Source: Flavipsychrobacter sp. (lineage in GTDB: Bacteria > Bacteroidota > Bacteroidia > Chitinophagales > Chitinophagaceae). Taken from it: DNA of 64,000 nt. How positions within the stretch are numbered: position 1 is the stretch's first letter; every line of letters begins with the position of its first letter. The position numbers and the translations under genes were made by a program. The stretch lies in assembly GCA_016786665.1 (NCBI GenBank), contig JAEUVZ010000008.1, positions 62,001 to 126,000 of the forward strand, read 5' to 3'. Below the pieces are notes generated by a model, which worked only from the letters and a program-made list of their open reading frames with translations, was not told the origin of the DNA and ran no database searches. Below are positions 886 to 61,419 of this stretch, one piece after another.

Positions 886-946
886 GAATTAGCGCAATTC
901 GACAATTAACCAGGACTGATAATATACAGCCGGATAGGATAAACTA

Positions 947-977
947 AAAAGGACTGAATCAAAAATTCAGTCCTTTT
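947..977 (+). terminator. Rho-independent terminator after RicT-like gene
   Basis: AAAAGGACTGAAT (947-959) pairs perfectly with ATTCAGTCCTTTT (965-977) around a 5-nt loop, with a run of T on the 3' side. It ends the plus-strand transcript of the RicT-like gene; the A-run on the other side would let it work on the minus strand too. The rest of 857-1206 holds only the palindrome at 868-885 and the second hairpin at 1103-1130; I see no gene there. Confidence 0.8.
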
Positions 978-1102
978 GTGTGTGGTATTCTAGGCTCATT
1001 TGGTTGGATTGGCGAAGGAATGGAATTCCATAGATTCATTGGGGGCGGGGAATCTATCACAGGCTAGCGCAAAGAAGTTTTTAATCTTATGATGATAAAA
1101 AT

Positions 1103-1130
1103 GAAAAGGTCACCGAACGGTGACCTTTTC
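1103..1130 (-). terminator. Hairpin terminator downstream of recQ
   Basis: GAAAAGGTCACCG (1103-1115) and CGGTGACCTTTTC (1118-1130) form a perfect 13-bp inverted repeat with a tiny loop. It lies about 75 bp past the recQ stop. In the minus-strand reading the hairpin is followed by a T-rich stretch (CATTTTTATC). It may serve both converging genes. Confidence 0.7.
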
Positions 1131-1206
1131 ATTGCAGTTTTATTTAAGATTCTATTTACCAGTAGCCTTGGTTAATCAGCCCTGATCCTGGTTCAGAATC
1201 GCGGTT

Positions 1207-3435
1207 CTAGTTACCATACTCACTTAAAAACTTAATGCGCATCATCTGCAGGTGTTCGATGCTTACGTTGTTGTCTTTAAATTCCTCGTAGGCGCTTTCC
1301 AGGTTATCATCCTGGCTGCTGCGGAAGTAGTCGAAGATGTCTTCCTGTTCGTCTTCGTCCAGTTCCTGCTCCAGGCAGTAGTCCAGGTTCAGCCTGGTGC
1401 CGCTGGCTACTATCGTTTCCATTTCCACCAGCAGGTCCTGCAGGCTGAGCCCTTTGTTCTTGGCAATGGTTTCCAAAGGAATCTTTTTATCAATGTTCTG
1501 TATAATGAACACCTTCATGCCGCTTTTGTTCACCACGCTCTTCATTACAAAGTCGTCGGGCTTTACCACATCGTTCTCTTCCACATACTTGGCTATCAGC
1601 TCCACAAACTTCTTACCGTAGCGTATCGCCTTACCCTTGCTTACCCCTTGTATCTTTTCCAGTTCTTCCAGGGTAGTGGGGTAGTTGATAGACATGTCTT
1701 CCAGCGAGTTCTCCAGGAAGATGACGAAAGGCGGCAGGTTCTTTTCCTTTGCTACCTGGCGGCGAAGGTCCTTCAGCATGTCGAAAAGGACAGGGTCGGC
1801 GGTAGCCGCTCCACCGGAGCCCGCGCTTACTTCCTCGTCGTCGCCGTTGGCGTCTTCGTAGTTGTGGTTCATAGCCACATATATGAGGTGTGGCTTCTTC
1901 AGGAACTTGTGCCCCTTCTCGGTTATCTTCAGCAGGCCATACTCTTCTATGTCTTTGCGCACCATACCTTCCAGCATCATCTGGCGTATCAGCGAATTCC
2001 AGAAGTTGGCTTCCATCTGCATCACCACGCCCGCGCCAAAGTTTTTCAGCTTATCGTGCCGGTAGGTTTTTATCTGCGGGTTGCTCTTGCCCAGTATGAT
2101 GTTTACTGTATAGTCTATGCCAAAGCGCTCATCCAGCTCTTTAATCGTTTCCAGTACTATTTTGCTGCTGTCGCGCACTTCCAGCATTTCTTTAGGATTC
2201 CGGCAATTATCGCAGTTGCCGCAATTATCCTGTTTGTGCTCTTCACCAAAGTAGTGCAGCAGCAGCTTCCGGCGGCAAACGCCACTTTCGGCGTAGGCCA
2301 CTGTTTCGGCTATCAGCTGCGCGCCCATTTCCCGCTCGCTGAGCGGCTTGTCGCGCATCAGGTGCTCCAGCTTCTGTACATCTTTGTAAGAGTAGTAAAG
2401 GATGCACTTTCCTTCCATGCCATCGCGTCCTGCGCGGCCGGTTTCCTGGTAGTAGTTTTCCAGCGATTTGGGTATGTTCCAGTGTACCACAAAGCGTACA
2501 TCGGGCTTGTCTATACCCATGCCAAAAGCGATAGTGGCTACTATTACGTCTACCTCTTCCATCAGGAACTTATCCTGCCGCTGCGCGCGGATGCCGGAGT
2601 CGAGCCCCGCGTGGTAGGCAACGGCGGAAATACCATTAGCCACCAGCGTCTGCGCCAGTTCTTCCGTGGTTTTGCGGTTGAGCGTATAGATAATACCGCT
2701 TTTGCCCTTCATGGTGTTGATGAACTTTACCAGGTTCTTCATCACCACCTCTTTTTTGCCCTTGGGCAGTATTTCGTAGTAGAGGTTAGGTCGGTTGAAC
2801 GAGGCCATGAATACCGCCGGTTTCCGCAGGCCCAGGTTCTTGATGATATCATCTTGTACCTTGGGGGTAGCGGTAGCCGTAAGGGCTATTATCGGTATCT
2901 CCGCGCTTATCTGGTCTATCATATCGCGCAGCTTACGGTATTCCGGGCGGAAGTCGTGCCCCCACTCAGAGATACAGTGCGCTTCGTCTACGGCCACAAA
3001 AGAAATGTTGATATCGGAAAAGAAATCAATATTTTCCTGCTTGGTGAGCGTTTCGGGGGCTACATAGAGCATCTTGGTAGTTCCCGACAACAGGTCAGAC
3101 TTCACCTTCTTTTGCTGGGCCTTGCTCAGCGTAGAATTGAGGAAGTGAGCCACATTGTCGCGGCTGCTATAGCTGCGGACCAGGTCTACCTGGTTTTTCA
3201 TTAATGCGATAAGAGGAGACACAATAATAGCGACTCCCTCGCTGATAACGGCGGGTAACTGGTAGCAAAGCGACTTGCCACCGCCCGTAGGCATGATAAC
3301 GAAGGTATCTGTGCCCGAGAGGATGCTCTTAATAATCGCTTCCTGTTCGCCCTTGAACCCTTCAAAACCAAAGTTTTCCTGTAACGCCTTCTTTAAATTC
3401 GTTTTTGATTTGCCTTTAGCAATTCCTGCATCCAT
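1207..3435 (-). CDS. recQ: ATP-dependent DNA helicase RecQ
   Basis: 742 residues. A 3'-5' superfamily 2 DNA helicase for recombination and replication-fork repair. The helicase core begins near residue 25. Walker A is TGGGKS at 50-55 and the Walker B/DEAH box is at 150-153, followed by the motif TATATPKVQ. The second RecA lobe contains AFGMGIDKPDVRFV and the motif VI sequence QETGRAGRDG. The RQC zinc site has its four cysteines in CRRKLLLHYF and CGNCDNC. An HRDC domain follows at roughly residues 540-625, and then there is a C-terminal extension of about 110 residues containing an acidic stretch (EQELDEDEQEDIFDYF). This extension is common in Bacteroidota RecQ proteins; its role is not clear from sequence. 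The gene is monocistronic, facing the RicT-like gene across two hairpins. Confidence 0.95.
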   Translation of the reverse strand: MDAGIAKGKSKTNLKKALQENFGFEGFKGEQEAIIKSILSGTDTFVIMPTGGGKSLCYQLPAVISEGVAIIVSPLIALMKNQVDLVRSYSSRDNVAHFLNSTLSKAQQKKVKSDLLSGTTKMLYVAPETLTKQENIDFFSDINISFVAVDEAHCISEWGHDFRPEYRKLRDMIDQISAEIPIIALTATATPKVQDDIIKNLGLRKPAVFMASFNRPNLYYEILPKGKKEVVMKNLVKFINTMKGKSGIIYTLNRKTTEELAQTLVANGISAVAYHAGLDSGIRAQRQDKFLMEEVDVIVATIAFGMGIDKPDVRFVVHWNIPKSLENYYQETGRAGRDGMEGKCILYYSYKDVQKLEHLMRDKPLSEREMGAQLIAETVAYAESGVCRRKLLLHYFGEEHKQDNCGNCDNCRNPKEMLEVRDSSKIVLETIKELDERFGIDYTVNIILGKSNPQIKTYRHDKLKNFGAGVVMQMEANFWNSLIRQMMLEGMVRKDIEEYGLLKITEKGHKFLKKPHLIYVAMNHNYEDANGDDEEVSAGSGGAATADPVLFDMLKDLRRQVAKEKNLPPFVIFLENSLEDMSINYPTTLEELEKIQGVSKGKAIRYGKKFVELIAKYVEENDVVKPDDFVMKSVVNKSGMKVFIIQNIDKKIPLETIAKNKGLSLQDLLVEMETIVASGTRLNLDYCLEQELDEDEQEDIFDYFRSSQDDNLESAYEEFKDNNVSIEHLQMMRIKFLSEYGN

Positions 3436-3649
3436 ACACGTAGATTTCCTTAGGTAATGGTCAATCCATCCGCAGACATATTAAGTGTGAGAATAATAGG
3501 AGACCCTTCTTTAAGCGCCGCGAATTTACGACAGTTAAGTTAATTAAACCGATTGACAGATGCAAGTAATTTGTTAAGGTCACCCGTACTTATCCACATT
3601 TGCGCAGCTGCTGGTAATGTGTACACTAAATATTTGATATGCGTGTATG

Positions 3650-3690
3650 TTAATAGCCTGGCGGTAATCAATACCGGGCCAGGCTATTAA
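3650..3690 (-). terminator. Stem-loop terminator after T9SS protein gene
   Basis: TTAATAGCCTGG (3650-3661) pairs with CCAGGCTATTAA (3679-3690), and the inner bases GGTA/TACC extend the stem. It begins 19 bp beyond the stop of the minus-strand gene at 3709-4404. Confidence 0.7.
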
Positions 3691-3708
3691 TGATAAGCAG
3701 GAAATATG

Positions 3709-4404
3709 TTATAGAGCGAACTTAATGGCTTTGCGCTCGTGTTCTGACTGGATAATGGCGAAATACATGCCGGGGGTAAGCCCGGTTAAGTCGAAGCGGG
3801 CCTGGTTGCCGTTCAGCAGCAGCGCTTCACGGGTGTTCAACACTTTTTGCCCGCTGATGTTGGTAATAGTAACGGTTACCTTCTCGTTGTAGGTGCTGGC
3901 CACGCTAAGCTGGCTGTTATACACGTGTGCCTGTATGGCCGAGGCGGCGGGTACCCGGGCCACAGATGCAGGGTAAGGGAATATCATACCATCCCAACCC
4001 AGGTAGTCTCCTTCAATCTTGTTAGAGTGCGAGGGGCAATCGATCATAGAGTTGTCAGACTCAGTAATGATCAGGCTGTAGTAGGGGCTAACGGTATAGT
4101 CGAGGTTGAACCACACCGTAATACCGGTGCCCGTTTGCGAGCATACGCCCAGGCTGTCTTCCACCAGGTAGAGGGTATCGGTATTGCCGCCGGGCGATAC
4201 CCAGTAGGTGCCCTGCGACGAAGGGGCGGTGTTTGCATTAATAAAATACTGGTAGTGGGTAGGGGTAAATACAAATATGGCGGAGTCGAGGCCGGAATTG
4301 ACATTGGGTGTTGTATTGGAGAAACGGCCCGTCATGTGGTATTGCTGGCTGTAAGCCGCGGTGCTGCACAGCAGTATAGAAAAGAACAGTATCAGGTTTT
4401 TCAT
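3709..4404 (-). CDS. Secreted protein with T9SS type A-like C-terminal sorting domain
   Basis: 231 residues. An N-terminal signal peptide (MKNLILFFSILLCSTAAYSQ) is followed by a central domain of about 130 residues that I do not recognise. The last 75 residues have the pattern of a Por secretion tail: ITNISGQKVLNTREALLLN, then LTGLTPGMYFAIIQSEHE and a basic, hydrophobic ending KAIKFAL. The protein is therefore probably exported by Sec, crosses the outer membrane by the Type IX system and has its tail removed at the cell surface. The usual PNP motif at the start of the tail is missing, so the tail is somewhat degenerate. It lies downstream of another T9SS cargo gene (4526-6061) but is separated from it by a terminator, so the two are probably not cotranscribed. 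Function beyond export is unknown. Confidence 0.7.
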   Translation of the reverse strand: MKNLILFFSILLCSTAAYSQQYHMTGRFSNTTPNVNSGLDSAIFVFTPTHYQYFINANTAPSSQGTYWVSPGGNTDTLYLVEDSLGVCSQTGTGITVWFNLDYTVSPYYSLIITESDNSMIDCPSHSNKIEGDYLGWDGMIFPYPASVARVPAASAIQAHVYNSQLSVASTYNEKVTVTITNISGQKVLNTREALLLNGNQARFDLTGLTPGMYFAIIQSEHERKAIKFAL

Positions 4405-4468
4405 AGCTAAATCGTTTTGTATTGCTTAGGTGTGTATAAATTCTGTGCCGCTGGTACAGGTGGAAAAA

Positions 4469-4494
4469 AAACTGCCCCGGGAATGGGGCAGTTT
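4469..4494 (-). terminator. Rho-independent terminator after delta-60 repeat protein
   Basis: On the minus strand AAACTGCCCC, a 6-nt loop and GGGGCAGTTT are followed by a run of T, the classic intrinsic terminator layout. It starts 32 bp past the stop of the gene at 4526-6061. Confidence 0.9.
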
Positions 4495-4525
4495 GAGGTT
4501 TACCGGTGTCAACCGTGACAAAGTC

Positions 4526-6061
4526 TTACAGCTTTTCGAACAGTGCGGAATGTTTTGTTCCGTTTTGCTCTACCGAGATGATGTAGCTGCCTTTAGGCAG
4601 AGTTTTGATATTGATAGCGTTTTTGCCGGAGGAAACGAGCTGGCGTGTAATGAGCCTGCCCGAGATATCGGTAATAGTAGCCGGTGCGGGTTGTTGATTG
4701 GTTACCTGCAGGCTTATTTCTTCTGTAGCCGGGTTAGGGAACAGTACCAATGGGTGGGTGGCAGGTTCCGTGCCGGGCACGCTTAAGTTCACGTCAGGAA
4801 CATACTTGTAGCGCATTACGGTGAACCGCTTGAAGTTGGCATTGCCATGGCTGCCCGCTACCAGGAACTTGCCATTGGGTTGCAGCGCTATGGTACTGAT
4901 GCGTGTTCCGCCGGTATCGGGGCGGGCGGTGATGCGGCCATTCACACCAAAGGTGGGGTCGGGCGCGCCGCTGGTATCGAAGCGCATCACGAACATAGAG
5001 TCTTTCACATTGGCATTGTTTGCCTGCACGTGGCCGGCCAGCAATACCTTTCCATCGGGCTGTACGGCCATTTCCACGCCCTTCTCAATGAAATTAGAGT
5101 AGGGTCCGAACGCATACCCACCGTTGCCGTAGCTCATATCGGTCATACCATCGCTGTTGAGGCGTATGATCGCCGGCTCCTGGGCTATGGTGTTGGAGTT
5201 AAGGAACAGGGGTACCAGTATTTTGCCATCGGGAAGCACCTTCACATCATAGCCACCCCAGAGGTCGTCCTGGTAGAAAGAGGGTATCACCCGTGTTCCG
5301 TTGAAGCCGAAGCTGGCATCAAGCGAACCATCGGTATTGTGACGGGCGATGCCTACGTGTGGGCCTACGCCCCAGAACTCGCCCGTTACCAGTATTTTCC
5401 CATCAGGTTGAAGGGCTATGGCCATGCCCGTACCCATGGCGACTGCCTCGGCTACGCCGGCCGTACCAAACGAGTTATCAAGCGTGCCATCGGCATTGTA
5501 GCGCACCAGTATGTAATACTGGTCGTCGTACTGTGTGCCGCAGATGATAATTTTTCCATCGGTTTGCACCTTTACATTGTAGGCGTCGCACTTGGTGCCC
5601 ACCTGTGTAGTTACTACGCCCGCGGTACCGAATGTATTGTCTACCGTGCCATTGGCATTGTAGCGCACCAGCATGGTAGACCACGGAGAGAAAGACCCGG
5701 TCTTGGCAATACCCACCGCCAGTATCTTACCGCTGGAAAGGAGTATCATATCGGTAAGCTGGTTATCGGTGCCGCCATGCGGCGTTATCACCTTGCCCGC
5801 CGTGCCAAATGTGTTATCAAGCACACCGGCGGTATCGTAACGGGCCAGCACAAACTGTGTGTGTCCCGCATTGCCGTTGGTAGTGCCGCCGGCAAGGATT
5901 TTTCCATCCGTCTGCACCAGTACTTTGGCGGCTACTTCATTGTTGCCGGTGAAGGTGGTAGCTGCGATGCCCGTAGCGGCGAACGATGAGTCGAGGTACT
6001 GGGCATAGACAGACCCTGCGCTCAGCGACATGCCGAGCATGAACAGTATAGGTTTCAGCAT
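4526..6061 (-). CDS. Delta-60 repeat secreted protein with T9SS type A sorting domain
   Basis: 511 residues. After a signal peptide (ending SAGSVYAQ) the protein consists of about seven repeats of 55-60 residues, each with the pattern LQPDGKILVxG, then RYNxDGTLDNSFGTAGV. This is the delta-60 repeat, which is expected to form a beta-propeller. The C-terminal 75 residues are a type A Type IX secretion tail: LVLFPNPATEEISL, then ITDISGRLI, then LPKGSYIISVEQNGTK. The mature protein should be secreted or displayed on the surface. Delta-60 proteins have no known enzyme activity. An intrinsic terminator follows. Gene length and repeat number fit the family. Repeats are diverged enough at nucleotide level that recent repeat expansion is unlikely. 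Confidence 0.88.
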   Translation of the reverse strand: MLKPILFMLGMSLSAGSVYAQYLDSSFAATGIAATTFTGNNEVAAKVLVQTDGKILAGGTTNGNAGHTQFVLARYDTAGVLDNTFGTAGKVITPHGGTDNQLTDMILLSSGKILAVGIAKTGSFSPWSTMLVRYNANGTVDNTFGTAGVVTTQVGTKCDAYNVKVQTDGKIIICGTQYDDQYYILVRYNADGTLDNSFGTAGVAEAVAMGTGMAIALQPDGKILVTGEFWGVGPHVGIARHNTDGSLDASFGFNGTRVIPSFYQDDLWGGYDVKVLPDGKILVPLFLNSNTIAQEPAIIRLNSDGMTDMSYGNGGYAFGPYSNFIEKGVEMAVQPDGKVLLAGHVQANNANVKDSMFVMRFDTSGAPDPTFGVNGRITARPDTGGTRISTIALQPNGKFLVAGSHGNANFKRFTVMRYKYVPDVNLSVPGTEPATHPLVLFPNPATEEISLQVTNQQPAPATITDISGRLITRQLVSSGKNAINIKTLPKGSYIISVEQNGTKHSALFEKL

Positions 6062-6909: not shown

Positions 6910-8691
6910 ATGAAACAATTTTTTAAAATGTTTTTCGCTTCGCTGCTGGCGATAGTGGTATCGGGTGTTATTGTATTCGGCCTGCTGATTGGTATGGCCG
7001 TAAGTATGGTATCGGAGGCCTCCGATAAAGAAGACAAGACGGTAGCCGCCAATTCGGTACTGGTAATAGACCTCAGCAAACGCCTGCACGAGCAGGGCGA
7101 GAAAAACTCGCTGGCGGCGTTTTCTAATGGCGACGCTTACACTGCGGGCCTGTACGATGCGGTAAAGGCCATCACTTATGCCAAGACCGATGATAAGATA
7201 AAGGGCATCCTGATAAAGATGAACCCCGCCAGCAATGGCTGGGCAACCATGCAGCAGTTGCGCGAAGCAATAGTGGACTTTAAGCGCAGCAAGAAGTTTG
7301 TATATGCCTATGGCGAAGTGATATCGCAGGGAGCTTATTATATAGGTTCGGCGGCCGACAGTGTGTACCTGAACCCCGTGGGCGATATAGAGCTGAAAGG
7401 TATGGCTACGGTGATACCCTTCTTTAAAGGCACGCTGGACAAGCTGGAAATACAGCCGGAGATATTCTACGCGGGCAAGTTCAAAAGTGCGACGGAGCCC
7501 TTCCGTGCTGAGAAAATGAGCGAGCCCAACCGTCTGCAGACCAGCCAGTTCCTGGGAGGCTTCTGGGCGGAGTACCTTACTGCCGCCGCCCAACATGCGC
7601 ACACCGATACCGCGGCCATCAATGCACTGGCGCAGTCTGGGGCTATACAGTTCCCCACCGACGCGCTGCAGTACAAACTGGTAGACGGCCTGCTGTATTG
7701 GGACGAAGTGGAAAGCCGCATAATGGGCAAGACCGGTGCAAAGAAGCTGAAAGACATAAAGTACGTGCAGCTGGATGAATACGCCAACACCGCCCGCCGC
7801 GATAAGAAAGTGAACGATAAGAAAATAGCCGTGATATTCGCGGAAGGCAGCATTGTAGATGGCGAGAAAGACGGAGACTACAGCATAGCATCGCAAGACA
7901 TGATAGAGACCATCCGCAAGGTGGCCGATAACGACAAGGTGAAAGCAGTAGTACTGCGCGTTAACTCACCCGGTGGCAGCGCGCTGGCATCGGAAGTGAT
8001 ACTGCGTGAGCTGAACGAACTGAAAAAGAAAAAGCCGCTTATCGTGTCTATGGGCGACCTGGCCGCATCGGGCGGGTATTACATCTCCAGCAACGCCGAT
8101 AGCATCTTTGCCCTGCCGAATACAATAACGGGCAGCATAGGCGTGTTTGGCATGATGTTCAACTTTGGTAACCTGATGAAGAATAAACTGGGCGTTACCT
8201 TCGACGAGGTGAAGACGGGCCCCTATGCCGACTTCCCCAGCGCCGTGCGCCCTATGACCGAAGATGAAGGGAAGAAAATGCAAGCCAACGTGGATAATAT
8301 TTACCAGCTCTTTATGAGCCGGGTAGCGGCCGGCCGTAAAATGAACATAGCCGATGTGGACAGCATAGCCCAGGGCCGCGTATGGACCGGTACCGATGCC
8401 CTGCGTATAGGACTGGTAGATGGCCTGGGCGACCTTAACAGGGCCATCAGCAGCGCATCGGCCAAAGCCGGCCTGAAAGATTACCAGGTAGTAACCTACC
8501 CCGAGCCGGTAGACAAACTGGAGAGCCTGATGCGCAGCCTGAAAGGCAATACCGGCGCCGCGGCAGCCGTGCAAACTACACTGAAGGAAGAACTGGGAGA
8601 CGATTACGAATACTACAAGCAGGTGCGCGACCTGAAAAAGATGAATGGTAAAGCCATGATGGCTATGCCCTTTATGATGAAGATAAAGTAA
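6910..8691 (+). CDS. sppA: Signal peptide peptidase SppA, 67 kDa type
   Basis: 593 residues, the length of the long, internally duplicated SppA form. A membrane anchor spans residues 5-33 (FFASLLAIVVSGVIVFGLLIG). SppA cuts leftover signal peptides in the inner membrane using a Ser-Lys dyad shared between its two tandem S49 domains. The first half has the general-base lysine region AGKFKSATEPF around residues 188-198. The second half has the nucleophile in GDLAASGGYY, with Ser at residue 387, preceded by VNSPGGSALASE. The start is supported by the promoter at 6849-6880. Divergence from folK is a common arrangement in this phylum. Confidence 0.94.
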   Translation: MKQFFKMFFASLLAIVVSGVIVFGLLIGMAVSMVSEASDKEDKTVAANSVLVIDLSKRLHEQGEKNSLAAFSNGDAYTAGLYDAVKAITYAKTDDKIKGILIKMNPASNGWATMQQLREAIVDFKRSKKFVYAYGEVISQGAYYIGSAADSVYLNPVGDIELKGMATVIPFFKGTLDKLEIQPEIFYAGKFKSATEPFRAEKMSEPNRLQTSQFLGGFWAEYLTAAAQHAHTDTAAINALAQSGAIQFPTDALQYKLVDGLLYWDEVESRIMGKTGAKKLKDIKYVQLDEYANTARRDKKVNDKKIAVIFAEGSIVDGEKDGDYSIASQDMIETIRKVADNDKVKAVVLRVNSPGGSALASEVILRELNELKKKKPLIVSMGDLAASGGYYISSNADSIFALPNTITGSIGVFGMMFNFGNLMKNKLGVTFDEVKTGPYADFPSAVRPMTEDEGKKMQANVDNIYQLFMSRVAAGRKMNIADVDSIAQGRVWTGTDALRIGLVDGLGDLNRAISSASAKAGLKDYQVVTYPEPVDKLESLMRSLKGNTGAAAAVQTTLKEELGDDYEYYKQVRDLKKMNGKAMMAMPFMMKIK

Positions 8692-58491: not shown

Positions 58492-60141
58492 ATGGGATTA
58501 TTTGTCAGGAAGCCGATCAACCAACTTTTGGCGGAAGCCTCTGAGTCGGAAAAAGGCTTGAAGAAAACGCTATCGGCCCGTTCGCTCGTTGCGCTGGGTA
58601 TAGGTGCCATTATTGGTGCGGGCCTGTTCTCCATAACGGGGGGCGCAGCGGCTACTAATGCTGGACCGGCCATTACCATTTCGTTCATTATTGCAGCGGT
58701 GGGCTGTGCCTTCGCCGGGCTTTGCTATGCTGAGTTCGCCTCTATGATACCTGTTGCGGGTAGCGCCTACACTTATTCCTTTGCTACCATGGGTGAGTTC
58801 ATTGCATGGATAATTGGCTGGGACCTGGTGCTGGAGTATGCCGTGGGAGCCGCTACTGTTTCTATCAGCTGGTCGCGCTATTTCGTAAAACTCCTGGAAG
58901 ACTTTAATATCCATATAGACCCTGCCTACACCGCCTCGCCCTTTGATGGAGGGATGATAAATGTGCCGGCGGTATTTATTGTTATGCTCATGTCGCTGTT
59001 ATTGATGCGGGGTACGAAAGAGTCCGCTTTTTTCAACGGCCTGATAGTGGTGCTGAAGGTTGCCGTGGTATTGATATTCATTACCCTTGGCTGGCAGTAT
59101 ATCCGCCCTGAGAACTACACGCCTTATATACCTGATAATACCGGTGACTTCGGCAACTTTGGTTTTAGCGGGGTAGTACGTGCCGCTGCCATAGTGTTCT
59201 TTGCCTACATAGGATTTGATGCGGTTTCTACCGCCGCACAGGAAACGAAGAATCCCAAGAAAGCAATGCCCATAGGTATATTGCTGTCGTTAGGTATATG
59301 TACCATCCTGTATATCTTATTCGCGCACGTAATGACCGGTGTCGCCAACTACCAGATGTTTGCCGGCAAAGACGAAATAGCGCCCGTAAAAGTAGCCATT
59401 GAGCAAATGGGCCAAATGGGGGCTGACGGCGTGGTGAAACCAGACTATCCCTGGCTGAATATGGCGATTGTGATTGCAATACTGGCAGGCTATTCCTCCG
59501 TAATACTGGTGATGCTGATGGGGCAATCGAGGGTATTCTTCTCTATGAGTAAAGATGGATTGATACCGAAGGTGTTCTCAGATGTACACCCCAAGTTCCG
59601 GACACCAGCCAAGAACAATATGCTGTTTATGCTTTTCGTGAGCCTGTTTGCCGCCTTCGTTCCCGCCCGCGTGGTTGGGGAAATGACGAGCATAGGTACC
59701 CTGTTCGCCTTTATACTGGTTTGTGTAGGGGTAATGGTGATGCGGGCGAAAATGCCGGATGCACCCCGTGCTTTCCGCACCCCGCTGGTGCCGTTAGTAC
59801 CAATACTGGGTATTGCCACCTGCCTCTTCATGATGGTGTTTCTGCCTACCGATACATGGATACGGCTTATAGTATGGATGATACTGGGCCTGGATCTATA
59901 CCTGTTTTACGGAATGAAGAACAGCGCCCTCAATTCCGGCTCATTCTTTAAGAACAGCTACAAGACTGTTTCGCTAACGGGAGTAGTGCTGGCACTGCTG
60001 CTGGTAGTGGTAGCGCTCATTCATCATAATGATCCTAAGGCGGACGATGATGTATTATTCCAATTTTCTATGGGCTTTGCTATCCTGCATAGTTTGCTGT
60101 TTATCTTTACCAGTACCATGGGTAAAAAGAAGCTGGATTAA
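58492..60141 (+). CDS. APC-family amino acid permease
   Basis: 549 residues with about 14 membrane helices. The APC signature LGIGAIIGAGLFSITGGAAA in helix 1 is clear, and helix 6 has VFFAYIGFDAVSTAAQETKNP, both typical of the cationic amino acid transporter (CAT) subgroup. C-terminal helices up to about residue 545. It should import an amino acid by proton or ion coupling; the substrate is not predictable. An intrinsic terminator follows at 60164-60196. Confidence 0.9.
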   Translation: MGLFVRKPINQLLAEASESEKGLKKTLSARSLVALGIGAIIGAGLFSITGGAAATNAGPAITISFIIAAVGCAFAGLCYAEFASMIPVAGSAYTYSFATMGEFIAWIIGWDLVLEYAVGAATVSISWSRYFVKLLEDFNIHIDPAYTASPFDGGMINVPAVFIVMLMSLLLMRGTKESAFFNGLIVVLKVAVVLIFITLGWQYIRPENYTPYIPDNTGDFGNFGFSGVVRAAAIVFFAYIGFDAVSTAAQETKNPKKAMPIGILLSLGICTILYILFAHVMTGVANYQMFAGKDEIAPVKVAIEQMGQMGADGVVKPDYPWLNMAIVIAILAGYSSVILVMLMGQSRVFFSMSKDGLIPKVFSDVHPKFRTPAKNNMLFMLFVSLFAAFVPARVVGEMTSIGTLFAFILVCVGVMVMRAKMPDAPRAFRTPLVPLVPILGIATCLFMMVFLPTDTWIRLIVWMILGLDLYLFYGMKNSALNSGSFFKNSYKTVSLTGVVLALLLVVVALIHHNDPKADDDVLFQFSMGFAILHSLLFIFTSTMGKKKLD

Positions 60142-60163
60142 GCGCTAGTGAATAAAAACCAAT

Positions 60164-60196
60164 AAGCCGTCCCGCGGAGAGTGGGGCGGCTTTTTT
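60164..60196 (+). terminator. Terminator after amino acid permease gene; source of the flanking repeat
   Basis: AAGCCGTCCC (60164-60173) pairs with GGGGCGGCTT (60183-60192), with one mismatched or wobble pair, and T6 follows. A 28-bp piece of it (60174-60201) is repeated at 61145-61172. Confidence 0.85.
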
Positions 60197-60201
60197 ATTG
60201 G
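60174..60201 (+). repeat. Outer direct repeat, left copy (28 bp)
   Basis: Identical to 61145-61172 except for one base (27/28). It is the right half of the permease terminator. Together the two copies bracket a 943-bp segment (60202-61144). Confidence 0.75.
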
Positions 60202-60202
60202 A

Positions 60203-60306
60203 GTTGGGTGACATGATTTACGAGGCAACTACTGAGCTGGATGGTTTGTGGGTTTCCGTAGACACAGTGCTCTGATGGCGCGTGGACATGTTGCAAACGG
60301 GTTTCC
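60203..60306 (+). repeat. Inner direct repeat, left copy (104 bp)
   Basis: Matches 61013-61116 at about 95 % with no gaps (offset exactly 810 bp; five mismatches seen). It begins GTTGGGTGACATGAT and ends GTTTCC. Each copy contains a 20-codon frame starting at the internal ATG (60213-60275 here). No gene function seen. Confidence 0.85.
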
Positions 60307-60425
60307 GGGACATCTACGTTGCAAAATTGGACGAGTGGGAGATTTATTAATTGTTTGATTAGTTTTAATGAAGCAGGACGCTTCGATTAGCGGGAAGGTG
60401 AATCAAATAATATAGAGTTTGCTGA

Positions 60426-60995
60426 ATGAAAATGGTTAGACGGTTTATTGTAGTGTTAGCAGTGTTTGCTGCATCATGTAGCGCACATAAAAAGAATGCA
60501 CACGAAAGCAAGATTGCTGGCTATGCGGGGTCGACCCATAGCGACTTTATGAAACTTAGTTTTATTTCCGTGCCCATACAGGTTAGGCTCGAAAATGATA
60601 CATTTTCATTGGAAAACAGGTATGGATATGGATATGTTGTAATGCGTAGCGAACAACTGTATAATTTGTTGTTAGACAAGCTGTTCTCGGAACAGTGTTA
60701 TGGTGATTATCTATTTCGTTTCATTGTCGAAGGAAGAAATTTGATGGTGAGCCAGGAAGAGTACGAGAAGTTGAAGCCTTACCTAATTTCCTTAGAAGAT
60801 GGTGATCGCTTTGTGAAAATGAATAGTAATAAGATAATTAAGACTTATTCCATCGATCAATACCTACCGTCAATAGATGTATCAGCGCCTGACTATCATG
60901 CCAGATGTTTAATACACCACTTCTTCAACAATGGATTTTGGGTTAAGATAGACCATGATTCAGGTTTCTTGCATTTTGTACAATTCAAGCGATAG
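60426..60995 (+). CDS. AT-rich lipoprotein gene inside repeat-bounded segment
   Basis: 189 residues. Lipoprotein signal with lipobox VFAASC; a second ATG two codons later (MVRRFIVVL) is a possible start. The mature protein has no motif I recognise: aromatic and charged, with segments LSFISVPIQVRLENDTFSLE, YVVMRSEQLYNLLLDKLF and a C-terminal ARCLIHHFFNNGFWVKIDHD. Its codons are AT-rich (about 37 % GC at 60601-60660 and 42 % at 60841-60900, against 58 % in a sample of lpdA). Together with the flanking repeats this points to acquisition from elsewhere. Unknown function. Confidence 0.7.
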   Translation: MKMVRRFIVVLAVFAASCSAHKKNAHESKIAGYAGSTHSDFMKLSFISVPIQVRLENDTFSLENRYGYGYVVMRSEQLYNLLLDKLFSEQCYGDYLFRFIVEGRNLMVSQEEYEKLKPYLISLEDGDRFVKMNSNKIIKTYSIDQYLPSIDVSAPDYHARCLIHHFFNNGFWVKIDHDSGFLHFVQFKR

Positions 60996-61012
60996 GTGGG
61001 CTTTTTGTTGGG

Positions 61013-61116
61013 GTTGGGTGACATGATATACGCGGCACCTACTGAGCTGGATGGTTTGTGGGTTTCCGTAGACACAGTGCTCTGATGGCGCCTGGACATG
61101 TTGCAAACGCGTTTCC
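61013..61116 (+). repeat. Inner direct repeat, right copy (104 bp)
   Basis: Right partner of 60203-60306; it also retains the 20-codon frame (61023-61085) with one silent and two amino-acid changes. Similarity extends weakly upstream into a T-rich stretch (60997-61012) resembling the terminator tail. Confidence 0.85.
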
Positions 61117-61144
61117 AGACGATCCTCATTGGAAACGAGGATTA

Positions 61145-61172
61145 GCGGAGAGAGGGGCGGCTTTTTTATTGG
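61145..61172 (+). repeat. Outer direct repeat, right copy (28 bp)
   Basis: Right copy of the terminator-derived repeat. It lacks the left arm of the hairpin, so it is a fragment, not a working copy of that terminator. Confidence 0.75.
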
Positions 61173-61212: not shown

Positions 61213-61419
61213 ATGAACAAGAATGTAAGAAATGCAGGTATCGCCCTTTTGGCAGCCGGAGCGCTGGCTTATCCCGCTATGCGCCTGTACCGATTTGTGA
61301 AACAACGCCGTGAGGGCAGCCCTGAGACGACAGGGGCGAATAACCGGAAGGCATTCAGCCCATCATACCTGGGCGATAACAAGCCGCACCGCCGAAAAGC
61401 GGAGCCTAACCAGCCATAG
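61213..61419 (+). CDS. Small single-span membrane protein
   Basis: 68 residues. A transmembrane helix near residues 8-24 (AGIALLAAGALAYPAMRLY) is followed by a basic, proline-rich tail (RREGSPETTGANNRKAF; NKPHRRKAEPNQP). A strong terminator lies 43 bp after the stop. Short and unknown, but the hydrophobic-then-basic layout and the terminator support it as a gene. Confidence 0.6.
   Translation: MNKNVRNAGIALLAAGALAYPAMRLYRFVKQRREGSPETTGANNRKAFSPSYLGDNKPHRRKAEPNQP

Follow-up and report, generated by a model that had tools for sequence, protein, structure and literature searches.

How did an AT-rich lipoprotein gene enclosed by two nested pairs of direct repeats come to lie directly behind an amino-acid permease gene? 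The locus belongs to a 64,000-nucleotide stretch of a Flavipsychrobacter sp. genome, hereafter the window, and had been read in a preliminary description as an acquired or excisable single-gene cassette. The genome holding the window is referred to as G000; the other four genomes of the genus are G001 to G004, with G001 representing a sister species. The best explanation, which is probably correct, is that the AT-rich accessory lipoprotein gene, together with two direct copies of a flanking repeat of about 150 bp, entered the permease terminator by illegitimate or homeologous recombination after the split from the sister species. Most likely, it was acquired as an ordinary accessory gene and does not form a self-moving cassette.

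The features of the locus are compiled in Table 1. The two outer copies proved to be as previously described, with 27 of 28 positions identical, a single position differing and 943 bp between them. The right copy was also correctly called the duplicate, since the left hairpin arm is present at the left copy and absent at the right one. For the inner direct repeats, described before as 104 bp long and about 95% identical with an offset of 810 bp, 99 of 105 positions (94%) were found to be identical between 60202-60306 and 61012-61116, and the offset was indeed 810 bp. Beyond position 60306, the identity falls to 18/39. About 10 bp of terminator tail (TTTTTATTGG and TTTTTGTTGG) stand directly ahead of both inner copies.

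Table 1. Features of the permease-lipoprotein locus in the window (positions counted from its first nucleotide).
Feature	Position	Strand	Evidence and remarks
Amino-acid permease gene; its terminator is the insertion site	58492..60141	+	PF13520, E 9e-53; 89% identical to the G001 orthologue, same gene order
Intact intrinsic permease terminator	60160..60201	+	Hairpin z -4.84; homologous terminator in G001
Left 28-bp outer copy	60174..60201	+	Original; loop and right arm of the terminator
Left inner repeat S1	60202..60350	+	About 80 bp of private sequence, then degenerate REP-like module; 94% identity to S2 over 105 bp
REP-like two-hairpin module of S1	60283..60346	+	Covariance model R1, 34.5 bits, genome-wide E 3.6e-7
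Orphan 189-aa lipoprotein gene (putative)	60426..60995	+	ORF with lipobox FAASC; 38.1% GC
Terminator-tail remnant GTGGGCTTTTTGTTGG before the second inner repeat	60996..61011	+	Last 10 bp match 60192-60201 at 9/10
Right inner repeat S2	61012..61144	+	Repeat comparison with S1
REP-like two-hairpin module of S2, extending into the right outer copy	61093..61156	+	R1, 34.0 bits, genome-wide E 5.3e-7
Right 28-bp outer copy	61145..61172	+	Duplicate; lacks the left hairpin arm
Small downstream gene, right border of the G001 empty site	61213..61419	+	75% identical in G001

The locus was compared with the corresponding region of the sister species, which keeps the order of the permease gene (89% identical), the small downstream gene (75%) and an LpdA-type dehydrogenase gene (92%). 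There, about 120 bp separate the permease gene from the small gene; the terminator is intact and the insert is absent. When the flanks from the window were joined at 60201/61173 (...TTTTTTATTGG followed by CAAGGTTTTTTAT...), they aligned to ...CTTTGTATTGGCAGGGTTTTTATG... of G001 with nothing left over. Thus, the 971 bp that G000 has in excess correspond to the 943-bp segment plus one 28-bp duplicate. An empty site with one repeat copy had been proposed as the state to look for in relatives; the empty site was found in G001, but with zero repeat copies. Conservation of the gene order on both flanks was seen in this one sister species only, so that a precise loss there via the 28-bp copies would be indistinguishable from never having held the insert. 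The genomes G002 to G004 keep the left neighbor, their permeases are only about 60% identical, and neither the dehydrogenase gene nor the small gene was found within the 1.5 kb fetched downstream of the permease gene. With a divergent permease and no such downstream neighbors, these genomes are unable to polarize the event. The region 3' of the permease gene seems to be variable across the genus. In G004 (C27; L026, 3138-4217), two genes for EGF-like lipoproteins lie downstream of a related permease gene, replacing the neighbors seen in the window.

The composition of the gene sets it apart from its surroundings. With 38.1% GC as compared to 51.6% for the window, it is the lowest among 52 ORFs (z -3.7), as the earlier reading of a 189-codon lipoprotein gene of clearly lower GC had anticipated. 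The lipobox cysteine was located in the sequence itself (MKMVRRFIVVLAVFAASC), and its context ASCS is kept in a paralogue; thus, the product can be described as a putative small bacterial lipoprotein of an orphan family. No family was assigned to it in Pfam, NCBIfam or PADLOC. The paralogue, 50% identical and encoded in the same genome (G000:C12:91582-92118), was the sole relative found: apart from it, no homologue was detected in 58 related genomes, GTDB contigs, viral contigs or plasmids; the collection scans pick up close relatives only and may therefore miss distant ones. Accordingly, no donor was identified, as these collections held no homologue outside G000. A structure predicted from the two sequences reached a mean pLDDT of 55.7 and was too poor for use. 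Kinship with a 187-aa orphan protein encoded beside a REP-like module in G001 was considered and rejected (BLASTP E 0.12; profile probability 0.4%). Taken together, the empty site in G001, the absence of the gene from the 58 related genomes and its aberrant composition support well the part of the preliminary description that called the gene acquired.

The paralogue has genes of a phage-tail-like particle (sheath, Pvc16 domain) on one side and a tRNA-Leu gene on the other, and no REP-like module was found near it. At this locus (L005, G000:C12:86000-97000), the contractile phage-tail-like particle genes adjoining the paralogue, encoding a tail sheath and a Pvc16 N-terminal domain protein, occupy positions 942-4783. 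A 131-bp tandem duplication (99%) at 7555-7816 takes in the 3' end of the tRNA-Leu(CAA) gene and adjoins the AT-rich stretch with the paralogue; it may be the mark of an old integration site.

The inner repeats are of composite nature. The last 64 bp or so of each is a degenerate member of a REP-like family whose two-hairpin units are dispersed in the genomes of the genus. For the covariance model R1, 20 dispersed repeats from the genus and from two further relatives were used, none of them from G000. Several stem pairs are broken in both S1 and S2, so that both modules are degenerate. A genome-wide search for further repeat copies, as suggested in the preliminary description, was thus successful for one part of the repeat only: the last 64 bp or so have four more copies in G000 (C38 twice, C43 and C76), with 2-13 matches in each of the other four genomes, whereas the first 80 bp or so have no other copy in G000 and none in 394 genomes of the family. 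The exact core of the inner repeat had no match in viral contigs, and no Rfam match above the gathering score was obtained.

Full copies in the sister genomes form two short hairpins, GCGTTgcaAACGC and CCTCGTTacaAACGAGG; read as the reverse complement, the second shows CGTC followed by the palindromic hairpin CTCGTTTGTAACGAG. CGTC-tagged REPs have been reported from Bacteroidetes among other phyla (PMC3733652), and for one group of RAYTs, found mainly in Bacteroidetes, the repeat structures have been described as atypical (PMC6006769). The repeats resemble REP/RAYT systems as short dispersed intergenic two-hairpin units whose full copies show the CGTC-tagged layout (PMC3733652). They differ in that both copies at the locus are degenerate and form the end portions of longer direct repeats, and in that RAYT is absent from G000: with working controls, no RAYT (Y1) transposase (PF01797) was found in this genome, compared with 1-11 in the other four genomes of the genus. 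In a relative, G181 (L072), about 0.9 kb separate a RAYT-like Y1-type gene from a full repeat copy. Next to the RAYT genes fetched from the genus, no module was detected, apart from one marginal match of 12 bits. Hence, it is only through the G181 locus, from a more distantly related genome, that the repeats are tied to a RAYT. In G004, a second repeat type (module A, ...ACTTGCGCCGGCGGAGG) forms dense arrays (C17:617756-627205, C17:466243-466582 and C5:83900-84590), the first of which encloses a Y1-type gene (C17:626036-626248) in a REPtron-like arrangement.

The tail of the REP consensus, GAGTGGGG, occurs exactly in the terminator (60179-60186). A donor piece could have recombined with the terminator through short matches, i.e., TTTTTnTTGG on the left and the REP tail GAGTGGGG on the right. 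If the two matches overlapped within the terminator, its right half of 28 bp would be duplicated and no transposase would be needed; this route rests on short matches. After insertion, the gene would behave as an ordinary resident gene for a small orphan-family lipoprotein. Recombination between the repeats could also remove the gene: loss via the inner repeats would leave one repeat, and loss via the outer copies would restore the terminator. Taken alone, the locus is ordinary. It represents a well-resolved small gene gain, for which the boundaries are exact, a sister species provides the empty site and the repeats involved are identified, and it shows how a terminator can take up an accessory gene and still leave the permease gene with a whole hairpin.

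Other origins were weighed against this insertion. The repeats could have arisen in place if a REP-bearing element entered the terminator, giving the order terminator, S and duplicate, if the tail and S were then tandemly duplicated, and if the gene was captured between the copies. The terminator-tail remnant preceding the second inner copy is what a duplicate of tail plus S would show, but it is short (9/10 plus an indel). Matches of at least 8/10 to its last ten bases occurred at 7 of 8286 sampled positions; on free local alignment of the whole 28-mer to the region before S2, 391 of 5000 shuffles were equally good, which is not significant, and the remnant is therefore a modest clue. Moreover, S1 and S2 diverge far more in their REP parts (18/39 identical) than in the rest (99/105), which a simple tandem duplication does not predict. 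This origin as a whole is unlikely; its tandem duplication step is a close rival to microhomology recombination. That the locus was misjoined from short reads, as might happen with repeats of such length in a 76-contig draft genome, is very improbable, since the repeat copies differ at several positions and are shorter than ordinary reads, while the locus is far from either end of its 175-kb contig and its two outer flanks agree in order with the sister locus.

The excisable single-gene cassette of the preliminary description would use the inner repeats as recombination sites, with the gene moving as a unit and the enzyme encoded elsewhere. It fits the high-identity direct repeats that tightly flank one gene, and REP-like modules of the sister genomes also stand beside AT-rich single genes, an HNH endonuclease gene at one locus being bracketed by them. 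However, the genome contains no further copy of the private portion of the repeat, and no second cassette with the same 104-bp repeat was found. That the locus has no transposase of its own was correctly stated; no recombinase was found there, either. The Y1 transposase is absent from the genome, and no match to the integron integrase TIGR02249 exceeded the cut-off in the five genomes; the weaker matches are probably general tyrosine recombinases, since all 14 controls also gave matches below it. S1 and S2 folded no better than dinucleotide shuffles (z 0.9 and -0.2) and are thus not attC-like. No partial state retaining one repeat copy was seen, the site in G001 holding neither. The repeat is in part an ordinary dispersed REP-like element. 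A cassette is quite unlikely, and the claim was not upheld. In comparison with integron cassettes and CALINs, the locus shares the arrangement of one gene between direct repeats containing hairpin sequences, but not an integrase above the cut-off, an attC-like fold or a cassette array; the integron reading was rejected for want of the integrase and the fold. Composite or MITE-like transposons likewise place a gene between two non-coding repeat copies with target sequence directly duplicated outside. Here, the 28-bp duplication is atypical, and neither terminal inverted repeats nor other copies nor a transposase were found.

The REP-like repeats of the sister genomes tend to lie beside AT-rich genes, of which some are defense-like, although this is suggestive only. 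The neighboring genes include those for an HNH endonuclease, an Mrr-NACHT protein, an NB-ARC/STAND-type NTPase and several orphans. Modules adjoined low-GC sequence more than ordinary intergenic positions did in G004 (P 0.0016) and G001 (P 0.07; one-sided Mann-Whitney). Since the test was chosen after the examples had been seen, with 10 and 9 loci that are partly clustered, and against a background of ten chosen 20-kb stretches each, this excess is a lead only. It is improbable, at present, that AT-rich single accessory genes, many defense-like, land or are exchanged at the two-hairpin repeats of the genus, with REP-bearing flanks as joints of a gene traffic that needs no dedicated transposase in the holder genome. 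Should the link to AT-rich accessory genes be confirmed genus-wide, it would point to a role of the REP-like repeats in gene gain.

In G001 (L090, G001:C4:9500-18000, 2188-4790), REP-like modules flank an AT-rich HNH endonuclease gene, and an AT-rich Mrr-NACHT gene follows; this may possibly be a small defense island delimited by REP-like repeats. In G000 (L087, G000:C38:27500-34500, 3108-3619), a pair of 177-bp direct repeats (92%) lies at the end of an AT-rich NB-ARC/STAND-type gene (902 aa); the repeats are 335 bp apart, and both contain a REP-like module. At a further locus of the same genome (L088, G000:C43:7000-13000, 3059-3992), a REP-like module stands directly ahead of an AT-rich orphan lipoprotein gene (280 aa).
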